37,891 nt of DNA. Origin: an uncultured Spartobacteria bacterium. GTDB lineage: Bacteria > Verrucomicrobiota > Verrucomicrobiia > Chthoniobacterales > Chthoniobacteraceae. The stretch is taken from positions 1-37,891 of the forward strand of contig CAIWVL010000134.1 of assembly GCA_903916085.1 (NCBI GenBank), written 5' to 3'. Positions within the stretch are counted from its first letter, which is position 1. Each line of letters opens with the position of its first letter. The position numbers were made by a program, and so were the translations under genes. The notes beneath the pieces are model-generated. The model worked only from the letters and a program-made list of their open reading frames with translations, was not told where the DNA came from and did not search any database. Of the stretch, positions 11,052-35,800 are shown one piece after another.

Positions 11052-11282
11052 ATGCAGGCTTTCCAACGGATTTCACATGATCCAAACGTCATGGGCGGCA
11101 AACCCTGCATCAGGGGGATGCGAGTCACGGTGGGAACCATTGTTGGACTTATCGCTTCCGGCCATTCACGAGACGACATTCTTCAACTTTATCCTTATTT
11201 GGAGGCTCAGGACATCACCGAGGCGCTGTCATACGCCGCGTGGCGGGTGGACGAAGTTGAACTGCCATTTGCGATTGCTTGA
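11052..11282 (+). CDS. DUF433 family antitoxin
   Basis: This 76-residue protein matches the DUF433 pattern throughout. The segments RISHDPNVMGGKPCIRGMRVTV, GLIASGHSRDDILQLYPYL and ITEALSYAAWR are the family's core, which forms a small winged/helical DNA-binding-like domain. DUF433 proteins are commonly the antitoxin next to a DUF5615 PIN-like protein, exactly the arrangement here. The stop codon overlaps the downstream TTG start in a TTGA arrangement, so translation is probably coupled. Two palindromes immediately upstream may be its own operator. Confidence 0.9.
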   Translation: MQAFQRISHDPNVMGGKPCIRGMRVTVGTIVGLIASGHSRDDILQLYPYLEAQDITEALSYAAWRVDEVELPFAIA

Positions 11283-13539: not shown

Positions 13540-13949
13540 CTGTTTCTTCTATCTCCATGAGCACAAACTCTGGCAATGCGCGTCCATCACTAACCTCAAG
13601 CGAGTTTCATCCGCTTGCAAAATTTCCTCAAGAGACTCGGGAAGCACATGACCGATTCGTAGTTTCGGGCGACCCGGGGGCGATTGGGGCGGTAGTGTTG
13701 GCCGTGATTTTGGATCATCAGCCGAGTGCCGCGAAGAAAGGGGGAGAAGCGCCGCCAGCCGACACAGCGAGGCTCATCGAGGACCTTGGATTTGACTCCT
13801 TGGCGCTCGCGGAAGTCGTGTTCTTTTTAGAAGACGTATACAAGGTGGCGATCACCAACGCGGAACTTCAAAACCTCCTCACGGTGGGCGAAATCCGGAC
13901 CTTTGTTCAGACCAAGGTGACCCAGGCGTATGGGAGTTCGCCTGCCTGA
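13536..13949 (+). CDS. Acyl carrier protein with long N-terminal extension
   Basis: This 137-residue protein contains a phosphopantetheine site, DLGFDSLALAEV, with Ser88 as the attachment residue. It is followed by a helix-III-like VYKVAITNAELQNLLTVGEI. The first 35 or so residues are Ser/Thr/Pro-rich and not part of the ACP fold, so the true start may be the internal ATG at 13557. The ATG at 13536 overlaps the upstream stop as ATGA, which favours it. The protein presumably carries the growing acyl chain for the ketosynthase immediately downstream. Confidence 0.9.
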   Translation: MTVSSISMSTNSGNARPSLTSSEFHPLAKFPQETREAHDRFVVSGDPGAIGAVVLAVILDHQPSAAKKGGEAPPADTARLIEDLGFDSLALAEVVFFLEDVYKVAITNAELQNLLTVGEIRTFVQTKVTQAYGSSPA

Positions 13950-18263: not shown

Positions 18264-18446
18264 ATCGAACCTCCATTGCAGCCCAGCATGGCAAAGGCTT
18301 CATGCGTCTGAGCAAGCCACCTGTGTTGTTTTTCATTGGAGCCAAACCATGACACTATAGAATCTCCGTTTTTTGACACATCCCGGCCTAAAGTTGCAAG
18401 CAGCCTTGGAACGCATCTCAATCTCTCAGCGCCTCTGCGCCTACGC

Positions 18447-19229
18447 GTGAAACTTTCCCCAACCGCTACAGCCTCGCATTGCGTGATTATCCCGAGCTAC
18501 AACTCGGGTCCACTACTTGCCCCAACTCTGCGTGCCACTTTGGCCAAATGGCAGCATGTGTTCCTAGTCGTAGACGGCTCCACCGATGGCAGCGATTTGT
18601 GCGCTGAGACCATTAACAACGAGTCCGCCAGCCTGGAAATCCTGCGACTCACGGTGAATCAGGGCAAAGGCGGGGCCGTTCTAAGCGCACTCAAGCTGGC
18701 TTTCGGCAGGGGATTCACGCACGCACTCATCTTTGATTCCGACGGGCAGCATGACGCCTGCGACATCCCCAAAATGATGGCGCTTTCCCTCACCTACCCG
18801 GAAGCAATGATCCTTGGCGTCCCCATTTTCGGCCCCGATGCCCCGGCCCTGCGCGTAGGCGGGCGCCGGTTCGGGAACTGGTGGACAAACTTCGCGACGC
18901 TCTGGGGCGGCATCCAGGACTCCCTGTTCGGCTTCCGAATCTACCCCATTGAGGCGTCCATTTGTGTGCTGGAACAAATTCAGGGTGGCCGTCGCTTTGA
19001 CTTTGAAACCCAACTCGCCGTGCGACTGTACTGGCAAGGCGTCCCGGCCGTTAGCTTTCCATCGAAAGTCACTTACCCAGAAAAAAACGATGGAGGAATC
19101 ACGCATTTCAAGTACCTGCGGGACAACCTACTACTCATCATAACGCACATCAAATTAAGCCTGCGCGCAGCGACAATGCTTCCTCATCTGATGGCGCTCA
19201 GGAAACGCAACGCTCGGTATCGGCAATGA
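18447..19229 (+). CDS. Family 2 glycosyltransferase
   Basis: This is a GT-A fold glycosyltransferase resembling dolichyl-phosphate-mannose-synthase-type enzymes. Visible motifs are VIIPSYNSG, VVDGSTDGS, NQGKGGAVLSAL and the metal-site FDSDGQHD. A later DSLFGFRIYP segment and a hydrophobic C-terminal region follow. The start is uncertain. A GTG at 18447 starts just before the first conserved strand, giving 260 residues. A TTG at 18336 is the other in-frame choice but adds unconserved sequence that runs through a dispersed-repeat-like segment. The stop overlaps the deacetylase ATG (ATGA). It probably glycosylates a lipid or polyene product. Aryl polyene clusters often include a glycosyltransferase. 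Confidence 0.85.
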   Translation: MKLSPTATASHCVIIPSYNSGPLLAPTLRATLAKWQHVFLVVDGSTDGSDLCAETINNESASLEILRLTVNQGKGGAVLSALKLAFGRGFTHALIFDSDGQHDACDIPKMMALSLTYPEAMILGVPIFGPDAPALRVGGRRFGNWWTNFATLWGGIQDSLFGFRIYPIEASICVLEQIQGGRRFDFETQLAVRLYWQGVPAVSFPSKVTYPEKNDGGITHFKYLRDNLLLIITHIKLSLRAATMLPHLMALRKRNARYRQ

Positions 19230-20020
19230 AGTTGCCTTCGCCGCATTGGAGGCGAACCGCGACCCACGCGATGTCTGTCGCGCTGGCTGGGGGAGCGCTC
19301 ACTCAGACCTTTTTGGGCGCTCCAGCGAGCGTAATCGAACTTGGCACTCTCTGCGCCGGACTTCTCCTCGGCCCCACCCTTGTGAAAAACTGCGCATGGT
19401 TCGGCCCCGTCAAGAAGCGTTTCACCACAGACACGCGCGAGGTGTGGCTAACCATCGACGACGGCCCCAACCCTGAACAGACACCCTACGTGTTGGATGT
19501 GCTTGGCCGGCACCAAGTGAAGGCCACCTTCTTTGTCATTGGCAAACACGTCCAGCGCCACCCCGAGCTCGCCCGCCGCATTTTGGCGGAAGGACACGCC
19601 CTTCAAAACCACACCTACCAGCATTTGGAACGCTCCTTCTGGGCCGCAGGCCCTCGAGTTGCGCACTCCGAAATTGAACTATGTTCGCGCGCGATCGCTG
19701 ACATCACCGGTGCCGTCGTCACTCAATTTCGCGCTCCCGTCGGGTTTGCAAACTCGTTTGTACACGCAGCCGCAGCCACAAATAACCTGACGATGATTGG
19801 CTGGTCTGCAACGGGTTGCGATGGCATCACGCATCGCCCCATCCAAGTTGCCGACAGAATAGAAACCGCCCTGCATCCCGGTTCTATTGTGCTTCTGCAC
19901 GACAGTAAACTGCCTAAAATGCGCGCGGCCGACAGGGCGTCCACCCTAGAGTTGGTTCTCGCACGACTAGCGGCGGCAGGCTACGCATGTGCCCTGCCGC
20001 AGGACACCGCACTGGGATAA
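19226..20020 (+). CDS. NodB-type polysaccharide deacetylase
   Basis: This 264-residue protein has two hydrophobic segments (about 14-32 and 34-52), so it is probably membrane-anchored with the catalytic domain behind them. NodB motifs are intact: TIDDGP at 76-81 (Asp78 and Asp79), HTYQH at 129-133 (both metal histidines), RAPVG at 169-173 and a C-terminal IVLLHDS. These enzymes remove acetyl groups from N- or O-acetylated sugars using a divalent metal. Coupling to the upstream glycosyltransferase by a four-base overlap suggests that the transferred sugar is an acetylated hexosamine which is then deacetylated. This is an inference. Confidence 0.9.
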   Translation: MKLPSPHWRRTATHAMSVALAGGALTQTFLGAPASVIELGTLCAGLLLGPTLVKNCAWFGPVKKRFTTDTREVWLTIDDGPNPEQTPYVLDVLGRHQVKATFFVIGKHVQRHPELARRILAEGHALQNHTYQHLERSFWAAGPRVAHSEIELCSRAIADITGAVVTQFRAPVGFANSFVHAAAATNNLTMIGWSATGCDGITHRPIQVADRIETALHPGSIVLLHDSKLPKMRAADRASTLELVLARLAAAGYACALPQDTALG

Positions 20021-20125
20021 AGAGCACAGGCCCTGAGAGTATTTGCGGGCAAAATGTGCCAAAGCCTTTCCATTGCCTTGCCAATCGGCAATGTTCATCA
20101 AAAAACATTACCTTTTCTGGAATCT

Positions 20126-20419
20126 ATGCACCCCAGTAACGAAATTTCCATCGAGTTCCTCAAAGCAATGCTCCTCGAGAACACGATGATCAAGGTCAAT
20201 CCTGAATCTATTGATGAGGATACCATCCTCTTTGGTGAAGAGGGGATAGGCCTGGATTCCTTGGACGCATTGCAAATGATCGTGGCTGTTGAAAAAAGCT
20301 ATGGAATCGAAATTAAAGATCCGGCGACAGCTCGCGATGCGCTCCAGAGCTTGGGCGTACTACGCGACTGGATTCAACGCCGCCTGATGAGCTTGCCGCA
20401 GACCCCACCAACCGCCTAA
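20126..20419 (+). CDS. Acyl carrier protein (second)
   Basis: This 97-residue ACP carries EGIGLDSLDALQMIVAVEKSYGIEI, with the phosphopantetheine serine in DSL. The ATG at 20126 (MHPSNEIS) matches ACP length. An in-frame ATG 72 bp upstream would add sequence that overlaps a small hairpin (TTGCC/GGCAA) and has no ACP similarity. The gene starts 105 bp after the deacetylase stop and is followed 17 bp later by the flavoprotein gene. It probably serves the dehydratase and ketosynthases encoded downstream. Confidence 0.92.
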   Translation: MHPSNEISIEFLKAMLLENTMIKVNPESIDEDTILFGEEGIGLDSLDALQMIVAVEKSYGIEIKDPATARDALQSLGVLRDWIQRRLMSLPQTPPTA

Positions 20420-20436: not shown

Positions 20437-21720
20437 ATGTCCGCAGTCGACTCAAGCCACGATAGCCACGATGTCGTCGTCATTGGCGGCGGCCCCGCAG
20501 GAAGCGTAGCCGGCACGTTTCTCGCCCGGGAGGGACTGCGTGTTCTGCTTTTGGAAAAAGAGCATTTCCCTCGGTTTGCTATCGGGGAATCGCTGCTGCC
20601 TTACAGCAACGACATTCTCCGAGAGTTGGGCGTTTTTGAGGACCTAGAAAAAGCTGGGTTCACGCCCAAACACGGTGCTGAGTTTTGTACTGGGGAGGGC
20701 GCACGCTTTCAGCGGTTCTGGTTTGCAAAGTCCCTGCAACCACAATACGCCCAGTCTTTTCAAGTAGACCGTGCTACCTTCGATCACATTCTTCTTAACA
20801 AAGCCGCGGAGGCTGGCTGCCACGTCCAACAAGGAGCAAAAGTGACGCGACTCGCCCCGGTCAGCGAGGCTGGGCCACACCGCCTTGAGTTCCAAACCGA
20901 GGGCACCACGAGGACCGTGACTACTCGCTGGATCATCGATGCAAGCGGACGCGGTGGTTTTGCAGGCAAAGCTCTCGGCATCCCGAAACTCCAGACACAA
21001 AAGAGCCGACGCGTCGCAATTTACGGTCATTTCAAAGGTGTTTTGCGTAATAGCGGCAAGGCAGGTGGCCACACAACGATCGTGCGATTCAAAGACGGCT
21101 GGTTCTGGCTCATCCCCCTCGCCAATGATGTCACCTCCGTTGGGCTAGTTGTTCCCACGGAAACGGTGCGCCTCTGTGAAGGCGATGTGTCGCAAGTTTT
21201 CGAGCAGGCCGTTCGCGCAAACCCCGAACTAGTAGCGCGTCTGGCGCGCGCCCAAAACACAGTGCCACTGCGGGCCACTGCAGACTATAGCTGGCGTTTT
21301 CGCAGCTTTGCCACGCCGCGCGTCTTGCTGGCGGGGGATGCAGCGGGATTCGTGGATCCGATTTTCTCATCCGGGGTCCTTTTAGCCATGAAATCGGGAC
21401 GCCTCGCAGCCCACGAAATCATTCGCGCACATCAACAAAACCGGGAGCTTTCTGAAGGTGAGCAAATTCAATATACACGGAAAGTCGCGGAATGGATGGA
21501 AGTTTATCACGGGATTGTAAATGCCTTTTACAAAAGACCCGGATTTGAGGTTTTCATGAATCCTGCAGCTTTCCTTAAAATCCCAGGAAGCATTGCTCAC
21601 ATCGTCGGAGGGAACACGGAGTTGCCCTTTTCGCTTGGCTGGCGTTTCAAACTTTTCCAAGCTTTGTGTGGGCTTCAACGCTTTTTCAACATTGCACCGG
21701 CGATTTCCTCGCTGCGTTAG
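20437..21720 (+). CDS. Flavin-dependent halogenase-family oxidoreductase (second copy)
   Basis: This 427-residue flavoprotein closely follows the FAD-halogenase pattern. It shows DVVVIGGGPAGSVAG at 12-26, FPRFAIGESLLP at 44-55 and TPKHGAEF with Lys78, positioned like the conserved catalytic lysine. WFWLIP at 222-227 is the WxWxIP motif, and LLAGDAAGFVDPIFSSGV is followed by LLAMKSGRLAAHEI. This is closer to the compact CndH/PltA-like and geranylgeranyl-reductase-like group than the first copy. It may halogenate, hydroxylate or desaturate an ACP-bound intermediate. Its position beside an ACP gene supports a carrier-bound substrate. Halide chemistry cannot be proven from sequence. Confidence 0.88.
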   Translation: MSAVDSSHDSHDVVVIGGGPAGSVAGTFLAREGLRVLLLEKEHFPRFAIGESLLPYSNDILRELGVFEDLEKAGFTPKHGAEFCTGEGARFQRFWFAKSLQPQYAQSFQVDRATFDHILLNKAAEAGCHVQQGAKVTRLAPVSEAGPHRLEFQTEGTTRTVTTRWIIDASGRGGFAGKALGIPKLQTQKSRRVAIYGHFKGVLRNSGKAGGHTTIVRFKDGWFWLIPLANDVTSVGLVVPTETVRLCEGDVSQVFEQAVRANPELVARLARAQNTVPLRATADYSWRFRSFATPRVLLAGDAAGFVDPIFSSGVLLAMKSGRLAAHEIIRAHQQNRELSEGEQIQYTRKVAEWMEVYHGIVNAFYKRPGFEVFMNPAAFLKIPGSIAHIVGGNTELPFSLGWRFKLFQALCGLQRFFNIAPAISSLR

Positions 21721-21761: not shown

Positions 21762-22745
21762 ATGTTCGCAACCCTCGCTGTTAGTCTAGGACTTTTATTA
21801 TTCACCGGCCTAGTCTATCAAATCGTAAAACGTGGTGCTCAAAACGATTACCGCACCTCGCTATTTTACAAGCTCCTATACACGCCGCTGGGATTTGAAA
21901 TGGCGATTTTCGGGCGCCGACTGGTGGGCCGTTGGGTGAGCGAACGCTTTTGCGAACTCGTTGGACTCGGCTATGCCTTGACCCACGCGGACACCCGTAA
22001 CGCCATCCGTCGCAACATCGCTCTACTCGATCCCTCGAAAGCCACACCTGGGGCGGCCATCCGCACCTGCATTTCCCAAGGCTACAACTTTCTGGATTTC
22101 GCCGAACTCTGGCCCATGAAACCCGGACAAATAGGCACGCTTCTGGGAGAGGGCATCGGCCTTGAAGAACTCCAAAAAGCCAAAGCACTCGGCAAAGGGT
22201 GCATTTTGGTAACGGGCCACCTCGGCTTCTTTGAACTCGGCGGCCCACTCCTCGCGGAACTCGGATTTCCGATGCTAACGCTAACCTTGCCAGAGCCTTC
22301 CGAACCCCTCACCCGCTGGCGCGCCGATTTCCGACTGCGTTGGGGGGTGCGTACGCTGGTTGTCGGCGCAGACGCCTTTTCGGCCGTCGAAATCACGCGC
22401 GAATTGCGTGCCGGTACGTGTGTAGCACTGCTGGCGGATCGCCCCTTTAACGAACACACAGCTCCAGTGCCGGTGCCCCATGGGGAGATCCTGTTTTCCA
22501 CGGCACCGGTCATGCTTTCGTTACTTTCAGGCGCACCGATTGTGCCCGTAGGCATTGTCCGTCAAACCAATGGAGCACACGCGATAGAGGCCAGACCCAT
22601 GATTACCCCAGAATGGCTGGCAGAGGGACGTGCGGCATCTCTTTCACATTTCACAACCAAGGTAGCTCAGGAGCTGGTTCCCATGTTTGTACGTAATCCA
22701 GAACAATGGCACCATTTTTCGGATCTCGCAGTTTCTCGCAAATGA
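21762..22745 (+). CDS. LpxL/HtrB-like lysophospholipid acyltransferase
   Basis: This 327-residue member of the lipid A acyltransferase (LpxL/LpxM) superfamily has an N-terminal membrane helix (4-20). It has the HX4E catalytic motif TGHLGFFE at 151-158 (His153, Glu158) and the conserved VALLADRPF and APIVPVGIVR segments. Genuine LpxL acylates lipid A. In aryl polyene clusters such enzymes are thought to transfer the polyene acid to its lipid. Its stop overlaps the dehydratase ATG. It is the second acyltransferase of the cluster and unrelated to the PlsC fusion, so two different acylation steps are likely. Confidence 0.88.
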   Translation: MFATLAVSLGLLLFTGLVYQIVKRGAQNDYRTSLFYKLLYTPLGFEMAIFGRRLVGRWVSERFCELVGLGYALTHADTRNAIRRNIALLDPSKATPGAAIRTCISQGYNFLDFAELWPMKPGQIGTLLGEGIGLEELQKAKALGKGCILVTGHLGFFELGGPLLAELGFPMLTLTLPEPSEPLTRWRADFRLRWGVRTLVVGADAFSAVEITRELRAGTCVALLADRPFNEHTAPVPVPHGEILFSTAPVMLSLLSGAPIVPVGIVRQTNGAHAIEARPMITPEWLAEGRAASLSHFTTKVAQELVPMFVRNPEQWHHFSDLAVSRK

Positions 22746-23173
22746 ATGTCAGTGCTTTCACTCCACACGGTCCAGGATTTCGCTTTATTGATAACTTTGA
22801 GATCATTACCCCCAATAAACAGGGGCGTTCACAGTTTCATCTCCAGCCTGATTTATGGTTTTTCGCGGAACATTTTCCGGGAAACCCAATCATGCCAGCC
22901 GCGCTTCTCGTGGAATGCGCTGCGCAAGCCTGCGGCGTCTTGTGGATGTCGCTTCCTGAAAATGTCGACACTGCGCACATGACTCCGCTTTTCGTAGCGG
23001 GAATAGACGCAGTGCGTGTCTTAGGGCCAGCCCGCCCAGGAGAAACCATAGTTAGCACGGTTGAATTACTCAAGGAGTTCGGCTCACTGGCTCAATTCCA
23101 GTTTGAATTGGCCACGGAATCGGGGGTGATTCTTCGCGGAAAAGCGACTTTGAGTCGTCAACTGAAGGGTTAG
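22742..23173 (+). CDS. 3-hydroxyacyl-ACP dehydratase (FabZ/FabA-like hot-dog fold)
   Basis: This 143-residue dehydratase has the FabZ signature FFAEHFPGNPIMPAALLVECAAQACG. Catalytic His44 and Glu58 are 14 residues apart, as in FabZ. It would remove water from 3-hydroxyacyl-ACP to make the trans-2-enoyl chain; repeated without enoyl reduction, this builds a conjugated polyene. The ATG at 22742 overlaps the acyltransferase stop as ATGA, so I prefer it to the ATG at 22706. It is the only dehydratase in the window. Confidence 0.93.
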   Translation: MNVSAFTPHGPGFRFIDNFEIITPNKQGRSQFHLQPDLWFFAEHFPGNPIMPAALLVECAAQACGVLWMSLPENVDTAHMTPLFVAGIDAVRVLGPARPGETIVSTVELLKEFGSLAQFQFELATESGVILRGKATLSRQLKG

Positions 23174-23181: not shown

Positions 23182-24408
23182 ATGTCTTTACCCGCTGAAG
23201 AGCGTGTTGTCGTCACCGGTTGGAGTTGCCTCACAGCACTCGGGGCAAACACTGAAACGAGTTGGTCCCGACTCCTAAATCAGGAGTATGCCCGGGGACC
23301 CATCTCGTGTTTCCCTACAGACGGCTGCCGCGTCACAGAAGGCGCTGAAGTCGTTCTCCCCGAACTCCCTTGGCTCCCCAAAAAAGCCGAAAGTCGCCTG
23401 AGCAGGGCCTCACGACTCGCCCTTCCAGCTGCACGAGAGGCACTTCAACACGCCGGACTGCTTGACCCGGCAGGGCGCTCAAAACTAGGGCATCTCGAAA
23501 TGAGCCTTAGCACAACTGCCACCAGCATGGAGCGCATCGAGGCCTTCGTGCGCCAAGTGTGGGAGGGCAAATCCCCGATACAACAGGCCGGACGGGTCGC
23601 CTCCTATCAGGCGCAACAGCAGGTGAACGACCTCCAAACGTTCCTTGGCTTCAGCGGCCCTGCCGCCGTCGTCTCCAACGCCTGCGCCGGCGGAGCGAAC
23701 TCGATCGGGCACGCCTTCGACCTCATCCGCGCGGGCCTTGTAGACATCGTGCTCACAGGCGGTTATGACATTCTTTGCGAGCTCGTCTTTTGCGGTTTCG
23801 ACAGTCTCCAGGCGATGTCCCCGGACCGCTGTCGCCCGTTTGACGTCAATCGTAACGGACTCATGCTTGGCGAAGGCGCCGCCTTTCTGGTGCTTGAAAG
23901 CGAGTCCCATGCACGGCGCCGAGGCGTTCCAATCCTTGGCGTACTCGCCGGATACGGCCACACCACAGACACATTTCACCTCACACAACCTGCGCCAGAT
24001 GGCACGCCGCTTGAAAAAGCAATCCGCAAAGCCCTGGAGCAATCGGCCACGTCTCCCTCGGAACTCGGCTACATCAATGCGCATGGAACAGGCACGCCCT
24101 TCAACGACCGAGCGGAGGCGCAGGCATTTACCCGGTGCCTCGGTGCGAACGCTTCCGGAGTCAGGCTCAGTTCGACCAAGGCGGCAATCGGACACACGCT
24201 CGGCGCAGCGGGTAGTATCGAGGCTGTTTTGTGCCTTAAAACACTTCAAACCGGCCAAATCCCGCCTCAACTGCACACGACCGATCCCGAGCCGCTCGTT
24301 GCAAACATGCTCGCGCGTCCTGGGGCGCTATTGGAAAAAAATGCAGCACTCAGCGTAAACCTCGGATTCGGAGGTTCCAACGCAGCCCTTCTGTTCAAAA
24401 CTCCATGA
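23182..24408 (+). CDS. Beta-ketoacyl-ACP synthase (KAS II-like), KS partner of the CLF-like protein
   Basis: This 408-residue ketosynthase has a complete triad: Cys168 in SNACAGGANS, His301 in NAHGTGT and His338 in AAIGHTLGAAG. The C-terminal LGFGGSNAALLF is also intact. It should catalyse decarboxylative Claisen condensation on ACP-bound chains. Its stop overlaps the ATG of a triad-deficient ketosynthase homologue by four bases. That is the classic layout of a KS/chain-length-factor heterodimer in type II polyketide and aryl polyene systems. Confidence 0.94.
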   Translation: MSLPAEERVVVTGWSCLTALGANTETSWSRLLNQEYARGPISCFPTDGCRVTEGAEVVLPELPWLPKKAESRLSRASRLALPAAREALQHAGLLDPAGRSKLGHLEMSLSTTATSMERIEAFVRQVWEGKSPIQQAGRVASYQAQQQVNDLQTFLGFSGPAAVVSNACAGGANSIGHAFDLIRAGLVDIVLTGGYDILCELVFCGFDSLQAMSPDRCRPFDVNRNGLMLGEGAAFLVLESESHARRRGVPILGVLAGYGHTTDTFHLTQPAPDGTPLEKAIRKALEQSATSPSELGYINAHGTGTPFNDRAEAQAFTRCLGANASGVRLSSTKAAIGHTLGAAGSIEAVLCLKTLQTGQIPPQLHTTDPEPLVANMLARPGALLEKNAALSVNLGFGGSNAALLFKTP

Positions 24409-25415
24409 ACACGCCGTTATCTATTTTGTCCTGGGGCGCGGTTTCTCCAGGTGGACTGGGCGTCGAGGCACTGGAGAACTTCCAAAACTGGCCGACGACC
24501 GTCGCTTCCGAGGTGGCGGATCCCGCCCGCCAACATCTGGTAGCCACCATTGATGCGTCCATCCTACCCGAGAAATGGCGAATGCGGCCCCGGTTCAGAC
24601 GGGCTAGCCCCATTTCGCATTACATGATTGAAGCGGCGGCACAAGCATTGGCTCCACACCCGCAAATTGAGCGAAACCGACTTGGACTCATTTACGTTAG
24701 CTTCATTGGCTGTTCGGTTTATTCGATTCGCTTCTACCGCCAGTTTCAAAAAGATGGCCGTAGATTTGCCAGCCCGATGTTGTTTCCAGAAACCGTCGCA
24801 AACAGTCCCCTTAGTCACCTGGCGGCAGAACTGGAAATTGGCGGCCCCGTTTACTCGCAAATTGGTGACAAATCCTGCTGGAGCTCGGCCCTGCGCACGG
24901 CTGCATGCTGGTTACATAACGGCGATGCGGAGCAGGTGCTCGTCATCGGTGCCGAAGAGTTCGAGCCACACCAACTCGAGGCCTTCCGCTCCATGCGCTG
25001 GCTGGCAAAACCCTATACGCGCCCGTTTGCAGAGGGAGCAGGAGCCGTTTTGCTCGGAAAAGGACCGCACTCGGGGAGGCCCTCCATTGTGAGCCTTAAA
25101 GACGGCTTTTGCTTCCGCTCCCGCAATGAAAGCAGGACAGCTGCGGAGCGGTGTTTAGCCGAGTTCGCCCCGAACCTTCCCGTACTGGATTCAGCCGTGG
25201 GCTGGATTCGCCCGGTAGCGATAGCGGCACTTAAAGGACGCACTGTGCATGATGGCATCCCGGCGCTGGCTCACGAGGCGTTTGGAGCTTCGTGTGCGTG
25301 GGACACGATCCGCGCGGCGCAGCGCCTAAGTATACACCCTGAGGAGCGGGTACTCATCCCCTACTGGGGGTTGTCCCAACAAATCGGCGCGGCAGCGTTG
25401 GAGGGGACTCCCTAG
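24405..25415 (+). CDS. Ketosynthase-like chain-length-factor-type protein
   Basis: This 336-residue protein is recognisably a ketosynthase homologue (GLIYVSFIGCS, GPVYSQIGDKSCWSSALRTA, VLVIGAEEFEPHQLEAF, FAEGAGAVLLGKG) but is shorter and degenerate. The NAHxT histidine motif is replaced by a VGWIRP stretch. A histidine in LAHEAFGASCAW may correspond to the second one. Aligned back from the GAEE strand without gaps, Lys156 falls at the nucleophile position, with Cys158 two residues away. It is therefore most likely a non-condensing partner that sets chain length for the adjacent ketosynthase. It is convergent with the ligase gene, with 27 bp between the stops. Confidence 0.85.
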   Translation: MNTPLSILSWGAVSPGGLGVEALENFQNWPTTVASEVADPARQHLVATIDASILPEKWRMRPRFRRASPISHYMIEAAAQALAPHPQIERNRLGLIYVSFIGCSVYSIRFYRQFQKDGRRFASPMLFPETVANSPLSHLAAELEIGGPVYSQIGDKSCWSSALRTAACWLHNGDAEQVLVIGAEEFEPHQLEAFRSMRWLAKPYTRPFAEGAGAVLLGKGPHSGRPSIVSLKDGFCFRSRNESRTAAERCLAEFAPNLPVLDSAVGWIRPVAIAALKGRTVHDGIPALAHEAFGASCAWDTIRAAQRLSIHPEERVLIPYWGLSQQIGAAALEGTP

Positions 25416-25442: not shown

Positions 25443-26897
25443 CTAGCGCCGAAGTTTGCCATTCGCCGTCTTTTCCAAACGTTCGACGGACTCAAATCGT
25501 AACGGCACCTTGTAGGAGGCCAGCCTCTGTCGGCAATGCAACGTGAGTTCCGCCGAAATCGGCATCTCCGAGGCCGCAACAAGAACCACTTCGGCGACTA
25601 TAAACGTTCCCCACCGCACATTTTCCTCCCCGCGCACCCGCGCCTCACACACTCCGGGATGCTGGCGCAGGACCTCCTCAATTTCCTCCGGGAAACACTT
25701 CATCCCAGAAATGTTCAACACGGACTTAATCCTGCCACACAGTTCCAGATTCCCCGAAGTGTGGCGTCGGGCGACATCCCCTGTATGGAACCAGCCATCA
25801 GCCATGACCTCCTCCCGCTTGCGCCAAGGGACTAGATAGGCGTCAAACATTCCCGGACCGCGGAGGCACAATTCCCCCACGTCGCCGGGCTGCCCTGTTT
25901 CGTCCAGCAGCACCACCTCGAAATCCTCGGCACTTCCAAGCGCCGTAGGACATTCCTGTGCATCACGCAGATTGAGCAGGGGCAATCCCGCCTCAATAAT
26001 TCCCAGCCCCTGTGTGAGGGGAACCCCATAGCGGCTCCGAAACCAAACCGCGACCTCTTCAGACAGCGCGGCTGCTGTAGACACCGCCAGACGTAAAGTG
26101 GACCAGGAGCGCCCCGAAACGTCACCAGCCAATAACCGGTAATGATAAGGCGCACCGTACATCACCGTTGCCCCCCATCGGTTGGCCGCATCCAATAGAT
26201 CCGTCGCTAAGTGAGAATCTTCGAGAACAACGCCCGCGCCCGCGCTCAAGTACAGCAGAATGGACACCGCGAAATGGTGCGCCATAGGGAGCGTCCAAAG
26301 CACGCGGTCCTCGTGGGTGATCCGCAGGCGCCGGTTGGCAGAGGCGATTCGCGCAAGAAGAGTCCGGTGCGAAAGTACAACTCCCTTACTTGCGCCGGTG
26401 GTGCCGGAGGAAAACCGGATTAACGCAGGCGCGACCTCAGCAAACTGCGCCTCTGAGAAGGGCGCAGCCACGGGGGGGAAGCAGGTCAGCGCGGCGGCAG
26501 CGTGAAGTGAAAAAACAAGAGTGGCCGGCTGAGCGCAGGGATCTGTCCAGATTAGACCGCCGGCGCTCACGGTGGCATGGAGTGCGGTTTGGCGCACAAG
26601 GGCTAGGCGCTCCGCTTCAGTAAGTTCCTGAGGGATCGGAACCAGGCAGGCCCCGCCCATTAGGATGGCAAGCGCCCACACCACGTGATCGACGCCATTC
26701 GGACAATACAACCCGATGCGCGGCACTGGCTGCCAAGGACAATCAAAGGCATTGGCCTCGCGCAGTGCGGCGCATGCCAGCGAGGCCGCCCGCTCAAGCC
26801 ATGCGTACGTGCAACTGTTCTGCGCGCTCAGCAGCGCAAGGGACTGAGGACACGCCAAGGCCTGCGCGCGGAAGGCGGAGAGGATGTCGGGGCTCAT
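25443..26897 (-). CDS. Acyl-adenylate (AMP-dependent) ligase
   Basis: This 484-residue member of the ANL superfamily activates a carboxylic acid as acyl-AMP and loads it on a thiol, most likely the ACP encoded first in its operon. Motifs are intact: RFSSGTTGASKGVVLSH at 161-177 (P-loop-like A3), DGWFHTGDVARR (A7) and KTANGKLRR at the extreme C-terminus with Lys481 (A10). The chain ends just after A10. It resembles the ligases of aryl polyene and xanthomonadin clusters, which activate an aromatic acid, but specificity cannot be read safely. The ATG overlaps the upstream stop (ATGA), so it is the third gene of a coupled trio. Confidence 0.92.
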   Translation of the reverse strand: MSPDILSAFRAQALACPQSLALLSAQNSCTYAWLERAASLACAALREANAFDCPWQPVPRIGLYCPNGVDHVVWALAILMGGACLVPIPQELTEAERLALVRQTALHATVSAGGLIWTDPCAQPATLVFSLHAAAALTCFPPVAAPFSEAQFAEVAPALIRFSSGTTGASKGVVLSHRTLLARIASANRRLRITHEDRVLWTLPMAHHFAVSILLYLSAGAGVVLEDSHLATDLLDAANRWGATVMYGAPYHYRLLAGDVSGRSWSTLRLAVSTAAALSEEVAVWFRSRYGVPLTQGLGIIEAGLPLLNLRDAQECPTALGSAEDFEVVLLDETGQPGDVGELCLRGPGMFDAYLVPWRKREEVMADGWFHTGDVARRHTSGNLELCGRIKSVLNISGMKCFPEEIEEVLRQHPGVCEARVRGEENVRWGTFIVAEVVLVAASEMPISAELTLHCRQRLASYKVPLRFESVERLEKTANGKLRR

Positions 26898-28210
26898 TCT
26901 TGGCTAGGTAATCCGAGCAAATCTTCACGCAGTTGAGACGTCATACAGATGAGCTCCGAAGGCGACAATACGCCCTCCCGCCAGGAAATGGTGGCCGTAA
27001 GAGAGCGATTGCATTCACTAAAAAAGATTCCCGTCCCCGGAGGATTAGAGACGCTAGGAATGTGCCAGCCATTCAGGATTTGAGCACCGCAGAATACTCT
27101 CGTTTCTGGCATGAAACAGCCAGTGTGCGAGTGAAAAAAGGAGGTTAAGCCGGCGCCGTTCTCGCGTCTCAACCCATCCATGTAAAGCGATGATGGAACC
27201 CGCAAAAGAAACTGCACCATGATCAGAAACGCAGAATCCGCTTTTTCTTTCACCATCGAACTAAACTGGGAGTGAATGGAGCGAGTCGCGCTTTCGAGCG
27301 AACCGACTTCCTCGTGGGTAAGTCCAAAATACATTTGTGAAGTTTGATTCTGGAAAATTGGATGCACAGCTCCGCGCCGACGCCGCTGCACCGGAGCACC
27401 CGCGTGAAAGTTCATCGCTCGATTACCTCGCGCCGCAAACACGGCGGCATGCGCACGGGCTACCACAGCAAAGAAATACGGCAGTTGAAAAATCCCGCCG
27501 GTCAAGTGATGAGCCCGAGTGCGGATGGTGGCCGTTTGAGCAACGTCAAAGTGGAGGATACTGAAGCGAGACGCACCCGGCTCTGGCGAAGGTTTGCCAA
27601 GGGCATCGAACGCTATTTCTTTCAACGCGTTATGGCGTTTCACAAAGGGACGGACGTTCCGCAGGCGCTCGCGCAGTGATGACGGGACCTCAAATGCGGC
27701 CCCCCACGAGGACTGGATTGTCGCCGGTTCGTTGGGATGAGCTGCGAGACGGGCGATTTCTTGAAGGGCAAGCTCAACACCCCGACCGTCCAGAAGGAGA
27801 TGCAGCCAGCGAAACGCCACGAGAGTCGCCTCTGGGCCTGGGATGAGCTCAAAGCGTAGGGCTTCGCGTACCGGTGCCTGGAGAAGCGTAGCACACACTG
27901 TCTCAAGCGAGGTGCCTACGGGGTGTTCAATGACCGGGATGACATTTCCAAAAGGCCCTGTCGCCCGCCATTCTGGGAGGCTGAAACACCATTCACGCTC
28001 AAGTTTGGCATGGAGCAAAGGATGAGACTTAGAGAATCGGGCCGCAGCAGAGCGAAGCGCATCGGCGGAAAAACCTTCGCCAAGAGTGAGAACGCTCACG
28101 CCGACATGGCGCCCCTGAAGACCAGACGCCATCAAATCTTCGAGGGCTAGGACAAAACCATCACAGCCCACTAGGGGAACTCGGAAGTCAACTGCGACAG
28201 CCTCCGTCAT
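26894..28210 (-). CDS. Condensation-domain-like acyltransferase
   Basis: This 438-residue protein looks like the chloramphenicol-acetyltransferase/condensation/WS-DGAT superfamily. The start of the first half shows DLMASG...VLTLG...L..A..RFSKSHPLLHAKLE, as in condensation domains. The active-site motif RWLHLLLDGRG at 134-144 supplies His137 and Asp141 of HxxxDG. The first His of HHxxxDG is Leu136, which is tolerated because the second is catalytic. It probably transfers an acyl group from the partner ACP to an amine or hydroxyl. It sits between the ACP and ligase genes, overlapping both by four bases. A free-standing condensation enzyme is not part of canonical aryl polyene sets known to me. 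Family assignment is moderate. Confidence 0.72.
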   Translation of the reverse strand: MTEAVAVDFRVPLVGCDGFVLALEDLMASGLQGRHVGVSVLTLGEGFSADALRSAAARFSKSHPLLHAKLEREWCFSLPEWRATGPFGNVIPVIEHPVGTSLETVCATLLQAPVREALRFELIPGPEATLVAFRWLHLLLDGRGVELALQEIARLAAHPNEPATIQSSWGAAFEVPSSLRERLRNVRPFVKRHNALKEIAFDALGKPSPEPGASRFSILHFDVAQTATIRTRAHHLTGGIFQLPYFFAVVARAHAAVFAARGNRAMNFHAGAPVQRRRRGAVHPIFQNQTSQMYFGLTHEEVGSLESATRSIHSQFSSMVKEKADSAFLIMVQFLLRVPSSLYMDGLRRENGAGLTSFFHSHTGCFMPETRVFCGAQILNGWHIPSVSNPPGTGIFFSECNRSLTATISWREGVLSPSELICMTSQLREDLLGLPSQE

Positions 28211-28473
28211 GGGAGCGGGTTACGTAAGCGTTCAATCAAGGCACCAAGAGCTTGGATGGACTGGAAATTAGCGCGAGTCACGTCCGCATCGGGCACAACG
28301 ACCCCAAATTTCTCTTCCAACTGCAAAAGGAGTTGCATGACCCCCATGGACTCCAAACCCGCATCAAACAAGTCTTCATTCAAGCTCAGGACGCGATTAG
28401 AATCCAAGAGATGCGTTTGGATCAAGCAGGTCAGATCCGACGTTAATTTCTGGCACGTCACGGGCAGTTGCAT
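28207..28473 (-). CDS. Acyl carrier protein (third, GLES variant)
   Basis: This 88-residue carrier protein has LFDAGLESMGVMQLLLQLEEKFGVVVPDADV, with the attachment serine preceded by Glu rather than the usual Asp. It leads the three-gene minus-strand operon ACP, condensation-like enzyme, ligase. Its stop overlaps the next ATG by four bases. The coupling makes it the likely dedicated acceptor for the ligase, in a separate branch from the two plus-strand ACPs. It is divergent from the LolA-like gene across a 108-bp shared control region. Confidence 0.92.
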   Translation of the reverse strand: MQLPVTCQKLTSDLTCLIQTHLLDSNRVLSLNEDLFDAGLESMGVMQLLLQLEEKFGVVVPDADVTRANFQSIQALGALIERLRNPLP

Positions 28474-28499: not shown

Positions 28500-28517
28500 A
28501 ATCGCCCGATTGATCAA
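28500..28517. promoter_or_regulatory. Overlapping palindromes in the divergent ACP/LolA control region
   Basis: An AATCG-CC-CGATT inverted repeat (28500-28511) overlaps the perfect palindrome TTGATCAA (28510-28517). They sit in the 108-bp gap between the minus-strand trio and the plus-strand LolA/MMPL genes, a natural place for one regulator to control both operons. I could not identify convincing -35/-10 pairs. Confidence 0.3.
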
Positions 28518-28581
28518 GTCACGCTCAATTCGCGCCCAAACCTGCCTGCCACCGTTCTGCCAACTCCTTCATCGTCCTTTC

Positions 28582-29244
28582 ATGCGTCTTGCTCCCTCTG
28601 CTTTGTGCGTTCTGCTGGCTAGCTCCGCTCTGGCACAGGACTCCCTTGATCTTGCTCCACTTAAAAAATGGATTTTGCTCCAAAAGGAGTTGCGCACGCT
28701 TGAAGCGGACTTTGTACAAACCCGCTCCCTCCGCACCTTACGGAGCCCAGTCGCCGTTCCAGGAAAACTTTGGTTCAACTCTGGAGGGGATCTCCATTGG
28801 GAACTGGGAAATCCACCAAAGACTATTTTCCTGCGTAACAAAGAGGGTAGTTTTTTAATTCATCCCCAGAAACTGCGCTATGAAACAATAGCAATAGACA
28901 AAGCGGCCCCAGGAGCGCCCCAGAACTTTCCAATGTTGGAGTTCCCAATAGCCTCTAGTTTTGGAGATTTTTGCAACCAATTCGAGGTTACAAAAATTAA
29001 AACCGAGGGCGCACAATGCCATTTGGAATTTATTCCAAAAGAAGCTCAGGCTCGAAAATACGTTCAAACGATTCGCCTCGATTTCGAAACTCAAACCGGC
29101 GAACTCCAGTTTCTCGAGTTCGTAAGCCGGGATGGATCGAGTTTAAAAACCGAGTTTTCCAATGTGCGCACGAACAGAAAACTGGATAACGCCATATTTG
29201 CTTTTGACCTGAATGGATACCGCGCCGATTCCCCTAAACCGTAG
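28582..29244 (+). CDS. LolA-like outer-membrane lipid/lipoprotein carrier
   Basis: This 220-residue periplasmic protein has a signal peptide ending SSALAQ (about residues 1-17). It has the LolA-type N-terminus FVQTRSLRTLRSPVAVPGKLWFNSGGDLHWELGNPPKTIFLRNKEG, a concave beta-sheet fold for carrying acylated cargo. LolA paralogues are regular members of aryl polyene clusters and are thought to ferry the lipid-linked pigment across the periplasm. I chose the ATG at 28582 because the signal peptide starts there; a TTG at 28510 would add 24 residues. Its 3' end overlaps the MMPL gene by 32 bp. Confidence 0.88.
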   Translation: MRLAPSALCVLLASSALAQDSLDLAPLKKWILLQKELRTLEADFVQTRSLRTLRSPVAVPGKLWFNSGGDLHWELGNPPKTIFLRNKEGSFLIHPQKLRYETIAIDKAAPGAPQNFPMLEFPIASSFGDFCNQFEVTKIKTEGAQCHLEFIPKEAQARKYVQTIRLDFETQTGELQFLEFVSRDGSSLKTEFSNVRTNRKLDNAIFAFDLNGYRADSPKP

Positions 29245-31624
29245 CCGGTTGGCAGCACGCATCATCCTCGCGTTCGCGATTCTCACGCTGACGCTGCTAG
29301 GACTGTCTCGCATTTCGTTTGATGTGGATGTCCTGAAAATGCTGCCCCAAGGGCTGCCCCAGGTGAAGGGCCTTGGATTTTTCCTCAAGAACTTCGCGCA
29401 AGCCGACCAACTCATTCTCACGGTCGAAACCGACACCGCTGAGGCCACAGAAAAAGTGGCGTCGGAGATTGCAGCACATCTGGAAGGGCGACCAGATTTG
29501 GCACGCTTGGTGGTTTCACAGCCGCCCTGGGAAACGCATCCAGCTGACTTTGGAGAGCTCGCCGCGTACCTCGCAATCAACCAGCCAAAGGAGGCGTTTG
29601 GCGAACTGGTCAGACGCCTCACCCCGGCACAAAGACCTACCACTCTCGCGAAAGCGCTAGAGGAGATCACCGAATCTGTTTCCCCCCAAGATGTCGCCCT
29701 CGCTGGGTATGATCCGTACGGCATCGTCCCTTCACTGAAGGAAACTGGGCTGATGTCACCGGCGCAGGCTTCGGAGTTTGTCTCCGCAGATGGCACATTT
29801 CGAGTTCTGTACGTTCATTCGGCGCATTCCCTTAAGAATTACAAGGAAGCGATCCAATGGATTGGAGCGATCAAGAAGAGCGTTAATCCATGGCGCGTAC
29901 TTCCTGGAGTGACGCTGGGGTTCACGGGAGAGCCCTCTTTTGTGGCGGACATTTCAAGCGCCATGGAATGGGACATGTCGAGCTCATCGGCGGTGACGCT
30001 TTTGCTGATTGCCCTCGTGTTTTGGGCCTGTTATCGCCGCGCGACGCCACTTTTCGGGCTACAACTGATGCTGGCCATCGTTTTCGCAGTGAGCCTCGGG
30101 GCAGCGGGTCTTTTTCTAAAACACCTTACCGTCATCGGAGTAGGCTGTGCCGCCATCATGATCGGGCTGAGCGTGGATTACGGGTACTTCATTTTTCAGC
30201 GGTCACTGCATCACAACGGCTCGGTGGCTGAATTACGGCGCCATTGCTGGCAGTACATTGCTTGGACCTCAGGGACTACCGCAGCTGCCTTCTTTTCGCT
30301 CAACCTAAGCAGCCTTCCAGGCCTCTCGCAGTTGGGCAACCTAGTGGGTATTGGGGTGGTCACGGGGGCCGCAGTCATGCTGACGCTTTTTGCCCCGCTC
30401 GCCATGAGCTATCGTAGGAAAGCTCAACCACACTCCCTTTCGAGGATTGAGGGGGTGCTCGCCTCCCCTGCCCTCGCCAAGGTGGGGTTTTACTGCACGC
30501 TAGGCCTCGTGGTCGTGCTCCTTGGAGTGCTCTTCACCAAAGGCGCACCGGTCACGGAATTCACACCGGGGTACCTGCGTCCGCGCCATAGTGATGCTTA
30601 CACGGCGCTAGACAGGCTTTCTCTCAAACTTGCGGATAACCGGGATTTGCTGCACTTGGTGATTGAGGGAGACTCAGAGCGCCAGGTGTTGGAGCGCCTC
30701 AAGGCGGCGGAAAAGACTATCGCGACAGAACAGACACGGGGACACCTCGTTTCCCACCTGACCCCGCTGATGCTGTGGCCAGACGCAGATGCACAGTCGG
30801 CGAATCTTGAACTGGCTGCCCGGATTGCGAGAGATCCTGCCGGACTGCGCGAGGCGGCACTTCAGGCTGGCTTTACAGAGGACGCACTGAAACTGACTGA
30901 GCAGATTTTATTGCACTGGAGCGAATGGGCGAAACTCCCGTCCAAAAGCCTCCCGATTTGGCCGGATAGTCCGAGTGCTCGTTGGATTTTAAGTCGGGTC
31001 AGCAGCCGTGCACAGGGCCATTTTCTGGCGGCTGGAATGGTGACACCCGTTCTTGGCCAAGAGGCGGCGCTGTTGGAGACGTTGAAATTACCGGGAACCT
31101 TTCTGGTGAGCTGGTCGCTGTTGGGAAACTCGCTGCAACAGGTAGTTCCCCGGGAGCTTGTAGCCATCATGCTGACACTCAGCGGGCTGGTGTTGCTGTT
31201 GCTGGCGTTTGCGCTGCGGAGTGCAAGGGCATTGGTGTGTTTCGTTGTAACAACGGGGCTCGTTTTAGCGTGCCTAGCCGCAGTCATGTCGCTCCTTGGC
31301 ATGAGCTGGAACATCTTTAACATCGCCGCCATTCTGCTGCTCCTAGGTACCGGAACCGACTACAGCATCCTTATCCTGTTGTCCCTTCGGCGAAATGGCG
31401 GAGACGTGGAGGCGACGCGCAAAGAGCTGTTTCTCGTCGTAAGCCTATGCGCCACCTCAGCCGCCGCCGGGTTTGGCACGATCGGTTGGGCGAATCACCT
31501 TGGATTAGCGGTCCTAGGCCAGACATGCGCCATCGGGCTGGTCCTCGACGCGCTCATTTCGCTGTTTTTGCTTCCCCCAGCGTGGAGGGCACTGGCGAGA
31601 CTGGGGGCAGGACAAAAGCGCTAA
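29213..31624 (+). CDS. MMPL/RND-family exporter
   Basis: This 803-residue inner-membrane transporter has the duplicated RND layout: one N-terminal helix (about 10-32), a periplasmic domain, five or so helices, then the same again. Both central helices carry the family acidic motif, GLSVDYGYFIF in the first half and GTGTDYSILILL in the second; these residues relay protons. MMPL proteins export lipids, and homologues are in nearly all aryl polyene clusters next to LolA. The ATG lies inside the 3' end of the LolA gene. The stop codon shares two bases with the stop of the convergent vapC remnant. Confidence 0.9.
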   Translation: MDTAPIPLNRSRLAARIILAFAILTLTLLGLSRISFDVDVLKMLPQGLPQVKGLGFFLKNFAQADQLILTVETDTAEATEKVASEIAAHLEGRPDLARLVVSQPPWETHPADFGELAAYLAINQPKEAFGELVRRLTPAQRPTTLAKALEEITESVSPQDVALAGYDPYGIVPSLKETGLMSPAQASEFVSADGTFRVLYVHSAHSLKNYKEAIQWIGAIKKSVNPWRVLPGVTLGFTGEPSFVADISSAMEWDMSSSSAVTLLLIALVFWACYRRATPLFGLQLMLAIVFAVSLGAAGLFLKHLTVIGVGCAAIMIGLSVDYGYFIFQRSLHHNGSVAELRRHCWQYIAWTSGTTAAAFFSLNLSSLPGLSQLGNLVGIGVVTGAAVMLTLFAPLAMSYRRKAQPHSLSRIEGVLASPALAKVGFYCTLGLVVVLLGVLFTKGAPVTEFTPGYLRPRHSDAYTALDRLSLKLADNRDLLHLVIEGDSERQVLERLKAAEKTIATEQTRGHLVSHLTPLMLWPDADAQSANLELAARIARDPAGLREAALQAGFTEDALKLTEQILLHWSEWAKLPSKSLPIWPDSPSARWILSRVSSRAQGHFLAAGMVTPVLGQEAALLETLKLPGTFLVSWSLLGNSLQQVVPRELVAIMLTLSGLVLLLLAFALRSARALVCFVVTTGLVLACLAAVMSLLGMSWNIFNIAAILLLLGTGTDYSILILLSLRRNGGDVEATRKELFLVVSLCATSAAAGFGTIGWANHLGLAVLGQTCAIGLVLDALISLFLLPPAWRALARLGAGQKR

Positions 31625-32794: not shown

Positions 32795-32831
32795 AAACGC
32801 CGCTAGGCTGGGATGGAAGATAGCGGCGTTT
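32795..32831 (-). terminator. Rho-independent terminator of the Ig-repeat gene
   Basis: A perfect 10-bp stem (AAACGCCGCT and AGCGGCGTTT) encloses a 17-base loop and is followed on the minus strand by one further T before GCATCG, giving a run of four T. The stem begins inside the TAA stop codon of the Ig-repeat gene. The T-run is short, but the stem is strong and exactly placed. Confidence 0.72.
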
Positions 32832-35800
32832 ATTCGCCCGGCAGCAACGCAAGTTCTGTGGCGAGATTGGTCCTGAGACCGCTCTTCACAGCGTTGAAGT
32901 CGGTGTCGCCACCGAAGAGGAGCACCTGCTCGGCGTCCCAAACGAGATCGACACGGAGATCGCTGGAGGCGGAGTCGTTGGGCGCGTAATCGCCTGCCAT
33001 CAGTTCGGGGGCTCCGTAGAGGGCGGCGTCCCCACCGGTTTGCACCCGACCGCTGACCGTGAAGGAAGCGGGGTTACGATAGGCGACCACCGAGAACTCG
33101 GAGCGCTCGCTAGAGAGGGCGTCCTGAGTGGTTTGATCGGCGACGGCCCAGTCATCCGCGGTATCGAGCACTGGGGTTAGGGAGATGGATCCCGTACCGA
33201 ATAGCCAGGAAGAGCGACCGGGAGTGACCACCCGTTTGCCGGCAACAGTCTGACTCACACGTTCCTCCAACCAGTAACCGTTACGATCCAGTGAGGCGGA
33301 GGTACCTGTGCCGTTCACCCAGTACACCCACCAGGAAGTGTAGGAGTAAGTGGTGCCATCGGAACCAGCGTTGGAGGTCGTCGGCAGATCCGTAGCCGAT
33401 GCGACTACCGTCAACCGCACCGAGGCTTCGACCGTACCGGCAGCGTTGGTGATCCTGACCGTGTAGGTTCCGGCGTTGGCTGCGCTCACACTGGAGAGAC
33501 GGAGCGCGGCTGAGGTGGAACCGACGAGATCCGAGCCGTCCTTGGACCACTGATACGTCACAGCTGTACTGGAACGCACCACGACGGCGAAGGAAGCCGA
33601 GCCACTTCCGCTCACGCGAGTGAGCGAAACGGGTTGGACCACAATCACCGGTACCTCCTTAACCTGGAGGGTCACCGGTGCGCTCGTGATTTCTTCACCC
33701 GTCGTATTCCTGACCGTCAGCACGTAAGCACCTGCATCGGAAACGGCCGCAGGGTTGATGCGGTACTGATCCGCTGTGGCCCCGGCGATCGCAACGTTCG
33801 CACTGCCCACCACACGCTTCCACTGTAGAGCGAGCGTCCCGGAACCAGTGACGGTCGCGGTCAGGTTGATACCGTCGCCCAGGTTGACTGGGTTTGGCGT
33901 ATCAATGGTCGCACTGAGTCGTTCCAAAACACGCACCGTGACCAGGTCGCTCATGACAGAGCTGGACGCGTTGCTTACACGCACCTGATAGATACCCGCA
34001 TCGGTGCCGCGCGCTGAGGTGACCGTCAATGCTGCGGAGGTCGCGCCGGCGATGGTCGTCCCGGAGGTGGTGCCGTTGCTAAGAGCAGCCCCGTCTTTGA
34101 ACCACTGGTAGACAAGAGTACCACCACCTGAGGCAACCACGTTCAGCGTGAAGTTGGCACCTGCGTTGAGCGCATTTGCGAGCGCAGGCTGTGTGCTGAT
34201 GCTCACAGGAGACGCCACGGTCATGTGGACGATGCTACTGCCAAGGATCCCGCCCGTGGATGGGTTGGTGACAACCACTTGGTAATCACCTTCCTTAGCG
34301 GCAGTGACGCCCTGAATGGTCATCGTCGCCGTTGCCGTGCCGGTCACGCCATTGCCATCTGAAAGCGCCGTCCCGTTTTTCTTCCACACGTAGGTGTAGG
34401 CCGCTCCCGTAGAACGCACTTTGACCGACATCTGCACCCCGTCACCTGGGTTGGCGGTGGTGGGGATGTCGAGAGACTCAATCTTCGGATCGACGGCAAC
34501 GACAACCGCCTGGCTGCTGGCAAAGGCCGCGCCGTTGTCCACGAGGAGGTCATAGACACCATCCGCGTCGTTGGTGATCGCGGGCAGCGCGTAGTTGAGG
34601 CTGTACACGTAAGTCGTGACGTTACCCACCACACTCGATTGAGCAACCGAGCGCAGCAGCGAGCCTCTACCTCCGGTGATGATTTCGCCATTGTGACGCC
34701 ACGCGTAGTTAAGGCTCGTTGCACCTGTGCTTTCCGAAGCGGTCGCGCTCAAGGTTTTGCCCGTTTCACCCGGCTTAACACTAAGGCTAACCCCACCATT
34801 CGGCTGGGTGAGGATTTTGACATCCGTGGGTTCAGACACGCGGAGGCTGACCGTGTCGCTCACCACACTGACGCCTGATCCAGTCACCGTCACGCGATAG
34901 GAGGAGCTGTCATCGCCGAGGCTGAGAGCTTTGAGCGTCAGGATCGACTGCCCCGCGCCCACAGCGTCCCAAGTGGAGGCTCCATTGAGTCGGCGTTCCC
35001 ACTGATAAGTGAGTGTGCCGGTGCCTGTCGCCTGCACGCGGAAGGTGGCGGTCCCGTTCTCAGAAGTGATCACGGAGATCGGCTGTAGCGTGATCGTCGG
35101 ACGCAGGCTGACGGATACCTGCGTGGCAGTGCTCAGAGCGACTCCGAAGGCGTTGGAAACAAGGAGGTCGTACCGCCCCGCATCAGTGCCTGCGGCCGCT
35201 GCGCGCGCCAGAGGAATGGTGACCGGCCCAGAAACGACAAGTACCACGCCTGAGTCGGCTGGAAGCGCCACCCCATCCTTACGCCACTGGTAATGGACGG
35301 AAGTTCCCGCAGTATCGGTGACCTGAGCGGCCAGCGCGAGCGCACTGCCCTCAGTGACGGACACAGTGGCGTTGGAGGTGAGAGTCACTGTGGGCGGCAC
35401 CTTGACGGTGACCCGTGCAACTTCGCGAGGAACGGTTGCATCGGTGAGAGCACCTGCGCGGGAGAAGGCGTTAGAGAGGATCACGCCATAGCTACCCGCA
35501 TCGGAAGCCTGTGCGGCGACGATAGAGAAGGCGTTGGAGGCGTTGACGATGGGGGTCCATTCGGTGGAAGAGACTGCCTTGTGGTACCAGTTATAGGCTG
35601 GAGCATAGCCAGTCGCGTTCACCTTGATGATCAGCGAATCACCCACTGCCAGCGAAGCCACCGCAGTGGTCGTGCCGGCCGCGAAGGCGACGTTGTCGCG
35701 CACCTTGATCTTCACAGGAGCACTGTCAACTCGCTCGTTAACCTTACCGTAAGCACGAACCCGGTAGGACGTCTCGTTCACCTTCTGGAGATTACTCAGA

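Follow-up and report, generated by a model that had tools for sequence, protein, structure and literature searches.

Aryl-polyene clusters of E. coli and Xenorhabdus doucetiae encode a ligase (ApeH), acyl carrier proteins (ACPs; ApeE and ApeF), a ketosynthase and chain-length factor pair (KS–CLF; ApeO–ApeC), ApeD, ApeJ, LolA and an RND exporter. The ligase of these clusters, which is analogous to the one described below, provides an ACP with its starter: after adenylating 4-hydroxybenzoate, ApeH transfers it to the ACP with no coenzyme A (CoA) intermediate (PMC8253772). Flexirubin (flx) and arcuflavin/xanthomonadin clusters have a polysaccharide deacetylase, a glycosyltransferase, an acyltransferase, LolA, an exporter, an AMP ligase and ketosynthases (PMC3992019, PMC3949708). 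Here we describe a cluster that shares its gene content with the aryl-polyene, flexirubin and arcuflavin types (PMC8253772, PMC3992019, PMC3949708) in a 37,891-nucleotide stretch of DNA (hereafter the window), which is contig CAIWVL010000134.1 of the 3.7 Mb draft genome of an uncultured Spartobacteria bacterium. Embedded in it are three coupled minus-strand genes (25443–28473) for an ACP (ACP3), a stand-alone condensation-superfamily protein and an AMP-forming acid ligase. We tentatively propose, with confidence a little short of even, that this trio and a flavin adenine dinucleotide (FAD)-dependent oxidoreductase act together as a module that loads an acid and transfers its acyl group in an outer-membrane lipid pathway of the aryl-polyene/flexirubin-like kind.

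With the aryl-polyene clusters the window shares a ligase with its own ACP, a KS–CLF pair, a dehydratase, a glycosyltransferase, a lysophospholipid-type acyltransferase, LolA and an RND/MMPL exporter. It differs from them in that a condensation-superfamily protein and an FAD oxidoreductase are tied to the ligase; no thioesterase was seen in the window, nor, among its scanned proteins, a ketoreductase, which could be encoded elsewhere. The components listed above for the flexirubin and arcuflavin/xanthomonadin clusters are likewise present, and a halogenase is common to the window and the arcuflavin cluster. By contrast, the dialkylresorcinol genes darA and darB were not noticed in the window, and neither an ammonia-lyase nor a chorismatase lies inside it; an ammonia-lyase is encoded on another contig (see below). 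Stand-alone condensation folds are known from PapA5-type acyltransferases and from AzeD (PDB 8s6l), whereas the protein described here has a small ACP and an acid ligase as its partners within a type-II polyketide synthase (PKS)-like cluster. Both the cluster type and the condensation fold are already known. In the open-access literature searched, we found no account of Verrucomicrobiota aryl-polyene-like pathways in which an enzyme of the condensation superfamily is accompanied by an ACP, a ligase and an FAD oxidoreductase of its own.

The carrier, condensation-fold and ligase proteins

The trio lies between a CLF-like gene and a LolA gene, and its open reading frames (ORFs) have exactly the coordinates and four-base overlaps reported in the initial annotation. 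ACP3 (28207–28473; 88 residues; Pfam PF00550 (PP-binding), E = 1.8e-10) carries its attachment serine in GLESMG. It overlaps the gene for the 438-residue condensation-superfamily protein (26894–28210) at 28207–28210, and the latter overlaps the gene for the 484-residue ligase (25443–26897; PF00501 (AMP-binding), E = 6.8e-49; PF13193 (AMP-binding_C), E = 5.6e-15) at 26894–26897, a stop/start arrangement of translational coupling. In a sample of 388 Verrucomicrobiota genomes (E cut-offs of 1e-5 for the condensation gene and 1e-60 for the ligase), homologues of the condensation protein were present in 36. Both genes occurred together in 32 genomes, the condensation gene alone in 4 and the ligase alone in 10 (Fisher p = 1e-33, a value that takes no account of kinship). 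ACP3 and the condensation protein form a single ORF in 13 Verrucomicrobiaceae loci (Prosthecobacter, Brevifollis and relatives), in an order that matches the peptidyl carrier protein–condensation (PCP–C) order. The gene order ACP3–condensation–ligase is kept in Akkermansiaceae-type genomes (Haloferula, Luteolibacter) and in one Terrimicrobiaceae genome, and ATGA/GTGA-type condensation/ligase junctions are conserved in many relatives. The search in other genomes suggested by the initial annotation thus returned a trio that is conserved, partly fused and co-occurring. Because the overlaps are conserved, ACP3 and the condensation protein are fused in relatives and the genes co-occur, the trio is a real unit; chance proximity of the three genes is ruled out by their conservation and by the fusion. 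Searches of plasmid records turned up relatives of neither the condensation protein nor the MMPL exporter.

The label 'condensation-like' was a guess when first applied to the middle protein. Alone, this protein had no family match in Pfam or NCBIfam, and its sole single-sequence matches in the PDB, to picornavirus VP3 (E = 0.006), were dismissed as chance. A profile of 25 homologues retrieved from the PDB a condensation (C) domain of a non-ribosomal peptide synthetase (NRPS; E = 6e-12), the stand-alone enzyme 8s6l (E = 1.6e-9) and further superfamily members, and 9 of the 25 homologues themselves matched Pfam Condensation (best E = 3e-6). The AlphaFold model (pLDDT 82.5, pTM 0.86) has the two-lobed condensation fold, the absence of which the initial annotation had named as one result that would refute its reading. 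Its top Foldseek match in the PDB was again 8s6l (TM 0.77, E = 1.3e-20), followed by NRPS C, epimerization (E) and heterocyclization (Cy) domains; 8s6l is deposited as the AzeD dehydratase and is about 15% identical to the 438-residue protein. The fold is secure, and the chemistry of the protein less certain. The catalytic HxxxD is present as H137 and D141, which are invariant among the 25 homologues together with G144, N288, P339, H383, P385 and G392. The family motif is xHxxxDxxG, with a single histidine; the full HHxxxDG of an NRPS C domain proper is absent from the homologue alignment, where the first histidine is replaced by L, S, D or other residues. The one-histidine HxxxD is also the form found in PapA5/BAHD acyltransferases, and PapA5-like stand-alone enzymes move carrier-bound acyl chains. 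The nearest relatives of the window's protein come from Verrucomicrobiota (records of Spartobacteria, Terrimicrobiaceae and similar groups).

The AMP-binding domains and an A10 lysine in NGK identify the 484-residue protein as a complete AMP-forming acid ligase, with the conserved signatures LPMAHHFAVSI and GIIEAGLP. The former is the core A4 segment in close orthologues and is LxMxxHFVVTI-like in most of the distant ones. The nearest solved relatives are ligases of the feruloyl-CoA, oxalyl-CoA, o-succinylbenzoyl-CoA and benzoyl-CoA types, and the aspartate that binds the alpha-amine was not found in core A4, a position inferred from alignments with CoA ligases and not with an amino-acid adenylation (A) domain. 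Because the ligase lacks an aspartate at the amino-acid-recognition site, an alpha-amino acid substrate is unlikely; from its sequence, the enzyme probably activates a non-amino acid. The reading of the trio as an amino-acid NRPS module was dropped for the same reason. The split NRPS module proposed in the initial annotation therefore stands in part. As in NRPS C–A–T modules, the trio brings together the same three functions, here operon-coupled and on separate carrier, condensation-fold and adenylation proteins that act as a unit, but its ligase is nearer to acyl-CoA-type ligases than to an amino-acid A domain, and the first histidine of HHxxxDG is missing. In the window's ACP3 a glutamate precedes the phosphopantetheine serine (GLESM), whereas the printed relatives have an aspartate there (GLDSM and similar). 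We infer that ACP3, rather than CoA, receives the acyl group of the ligase.

A fourth partner and a proposed function

The unit comprises more than the three genes first recognized. The trio is real, but the set is one of four, the overlooked member being an FAD-dependent oxidoreductase (16968–18263, minus strand; PF12831, E = 9.4e-83). It is present in 16 of the 16 sampled same-class genomes that carry the ligase, and it was not found in genomes G379 and G258 or in three control genomes, with a weak match in G218. Occurrence in same-class genomes is nested: 11 have the condensation gene, 16 the ligase, the same 16 the oxidoreductase and 18 a strong MMPL match (E below 1e-60); 7 additional relatives carry the ligase and MMPL. 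Relatives often place the oxidoreductase gene within the ligase operon. One locus (L069) has a single operon of ACP3, condensation protein, FAD oxidoreductase and ligase next to LolA/MMPL, the oxidoreductase and ligase genes are neighbours in G066, and two genomes (G314 and G355) have an ACP3–FAD oxidoreductase–ligase operon with no condensation gene. The ligase is thus accompanied more constantly by the oxidoreductase than by the condensation protein. Because G314 and G355 hold the rest of the set without it, the condensation gene is optional, and its product is therefore dispensable for loading or priming as such.

In the module we favour, the ligase would adenylate a carboxylic acid other than an alpha-amino acid and hand it to ACP3, and the FAD oxidoreductase would oxidise this acid, either free or bound to ACP3. 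The condensation-fold protein would then use its H137/D141 site to move the acyl group off ACP3 and onto an amine or hydroxyl of the product of the pathway (or onto another carrier), yielding an amide or ester. The finished lipid would be exported by LolA and the MMPL protein; the order of these steps is the one we consider plausible. The existence of fused ACP–condensation proteins suggests that the cargo of ACP3 is the substrate of the condensation protein. Tailoring is favoured over core priming because the distribution of the condensation gene is optional: its absence from G314 and G355, and the absence of the ligase, oxidoreductase and condensation gene from G258, are as expected of decoration and not of core polyene assembly. 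Several points weigh against this proposal. Some condensation-fold enzymes carry out epimerisation, cyclisation or dehydration, no obvious acceptor-making gene was found in the cluster, and the ACP–oxidoreductase–ligase sets of G314 and G355 do without a condensation protein altogether. Given the precedent of ApeH and ApeE, moreover, the ligase and ACP3 may merely prime (PMC8253772).

Pure priming is the alternative that survives best, although we consider it unlikely. The ligase would load an aryl acid prepared by the FAD enzyme onto ACP3, as ApeH does with ApeE, and the condensation protein would pass the starter to KS–CLF or a second ACP, or would edit ACP3. The CoA-free loading by ApeH (PMC8253772) speaks for this view, as does the occurrence of the ligase in 16 of the 18 same-class genomes that match MMPL strongly. 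So does an FkbO/Hyg5-type chorismatase gene that adjoins the MMPL gene in G066 (L101:11820–12818), with a homologue that adjoins the MMPL gene in G218 (L109:8748), which ties the pathway to hydroxybenzoates. XanB2-type chorismate-utilising enzymes provide hydroxybenzoates for xanthomonadin and arcuflavin (PMC3949708), and the position of the chorismatase beside the exporter suggests a hydroxybenzoate-derived aryl starter. Judged by these genes and by the ammonia-lyase described below, the product likely has aryl character. However, the E. coli aryl-polyene cluster lists no condensation-type enzyme (PMC8253772), and G258, whose KS2 and CLF are among the closest to those of the window, and G218 keep portions of the pathway without the ligase and condensation gene.

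Priming is also weakened by the window's own genome, in which contig C51 encodes an aromatic ammonia-lyase followed by a second AMP ligase (L128:3388–4899 and 5367–6866), so that the trio need not supply the starter. The ammonia-lyase falls short of the cut-offs for both the HAL and the FlxA model and carries an HL motif, which we take to resemble that of tyrosine ammonia-lyases; the pair is flexirubin FlxA/FlxY-like and lies away from the window cluster. A strict search of the loci for an ASGDLAP-like 4-methylideneimidazole-5-one (MIO) motif returned no ammonia-lyase, whereas family and protein searches found the one on C51 and a homologue in another locus (L041). The second ligase was not found conserved in other genomes and is thereby ruled out as a general starter ligase. 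In several other genomes searched, neither an ammonia-lyase nor a chorismatase was found.

We regard as improbable a scheme in which the condensation-fold protein performs non-transfer chemistry, such as dehydration, cyclisation or stereochange, on the ACP3-bound acid. The closest fold match is deposited as a dehydratase, heterocyclization and epimerization domains rank high and the first histidine of HHxxxDG is replaced in the family. But the single-histidine motif is also that of the PapA5/BAHD acyltransferases, and Foldseek ranking inside one superfamily cannot tell chemistries apart. There is a similarly small chance that the four genes constitute a separate pathway whose position within or beside the polyene cluster is incidental. 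Housekeeping genes surround the trio, with no ketosynthases near, in several loci of the Akkermansiaceae and Terrimicrobiaceae, and the trio lies away from the ketosynthases in Verrucomicrobiaceae-type genomes too. Nevertheless, each of the Akkermansiaceae- and Verrucomicrobiaceae-type genomes tested has, elsewhere, an orthologue of KS2 next to a CLF-like gene as well as a single MMPL orthologue, whereas no MMPL orthologue was found in three trio-less control genomes. Among families further removed, the condensation gene and ligase are mostly found within clusters of KS, CLF and family 2 glycosyltransferase (GT2) genes. Given these two arrangements, the polyene pathway is dispersed in some lineages but kept as a cluster in others.

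Beyond the window, it is conceivable, if somewhat doubtful, that a hitherto unrecognised, Verrucomicrobiota-wide condensation-fold family joins a fully split NRPS-like loading module of ligase, carrier and FAD oxidoreductase to an aryl-polyene type-II PKS, in which case a second acid, oxidised, would be bound to the polyene lipids as amide or ester. If so, the result would be a PKS–NRPS-style hybrid made entirely of free-standing proteins. A broad range of one phylum retains this extra four-gene module, whose condensation-fold enzyme was overlooked by Pfam and NCBIfam on the window protein. Genomes that have or lack the enzyme, in fused or unfused form, provide a defined test set for what is attached to the polyene, and the family offers a handle for finding like modules that Pfam/NCBIfam annotation may pass over.

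The surrounding cluster and its neighbours

The cluster extends from 11.8 to 31.6 kb of the window and totals three ACPs, two ketosynthases with a CLF-like partner, two halogenase-like proteins and two acyltransferases. All its genes described in this section are on the plus strand. The first part encodes a flavin halogenase-like protein with the motif FIDPFYSPG (11863–13539; PF04820, E = 1.3e-14), ACP1 (13536–13949; PF00550, E = 6e-5), the FabF-like ketosynthase KS1 (13973–15283; NCBIfam fabF, E = 4.3e-94) and a PlsC-type acyltransferase fused to a PAP2 phosphatase (15187–16689; PF01553, E = 1.4e-12; PF01569, E = 8.1e-10). Past the FAD oxidoreductase gene lie those for a GT2 protein (18336–19229; PF00535), a polysaccharide deacetylase-like protein (19226–20020; PF01522), ACP2 (20054–20419; PF00550, E = 9.3e-7) and a second, CmlS-like flavin halogenase-like protein with FVDPIFSSG (20437–21720; PF04820, E = 4.2e-31; NCBIfam CmlS, E = 2.7e-63, below its cut-off). 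These are followed by a lipid A-type acyltransferase (21762–22745; PF03279), a FabZ/FabA-like dehydratase (22706–23173; PF07977, E = 2.6e-17), ketosynthase KS2 (23182–24408; PF00109/PF02801) and its 336-residue CLF-like partner (24405–25415; PF00109, E = 4.8e-7), which overlaps KS2 by four bases. Beyond the trio are a LolA-like carrier, divergent from it (28510–29244; PF03548, E = 2.2e-13), and the MMPL/RND exporter (29213–31624; PF03176, E = 2e-23).

The initial annotation had placed the trio in a fatty-acid-like cluster, and the Pfam matches bear this out with fatty-acid/type-II-PKS-like content of an aryl-polyene/flexirubin-like kind: a KS–CLF pair, ACPs, a dehydratase, LolA, MMPL, an acyltransferase and GT2 are all present. 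When KS2, CLF and the dehydratase were compared with the PDB, Ape proteins were not returned as best matches, so cluster membership rests on gene content and not on close sequence kinship. In content, then, the cluster resembles those responsible for aryl-polyene pigments of the outer membrane. Both halogenase-like proteins have FxxPxxSxG-type motifs, and the product may be halogenated; in loci of the Akkermansiaceae and Verrucomicrobiaceae, too, distant halogenase-like genes occur close to the trio.

Outside the cluster, a toxin–antitoxin-like gene pair at 11052–11641 encodes a DUF433 protein, the only family-tested member of the pair, and a short protein beginning LRILIDMNLSPEW. On the other side, a minus-strand ORF of 1664 residues (32830–37824) contains many Ig-like-looking repeats and is probably a cell-surface protein.

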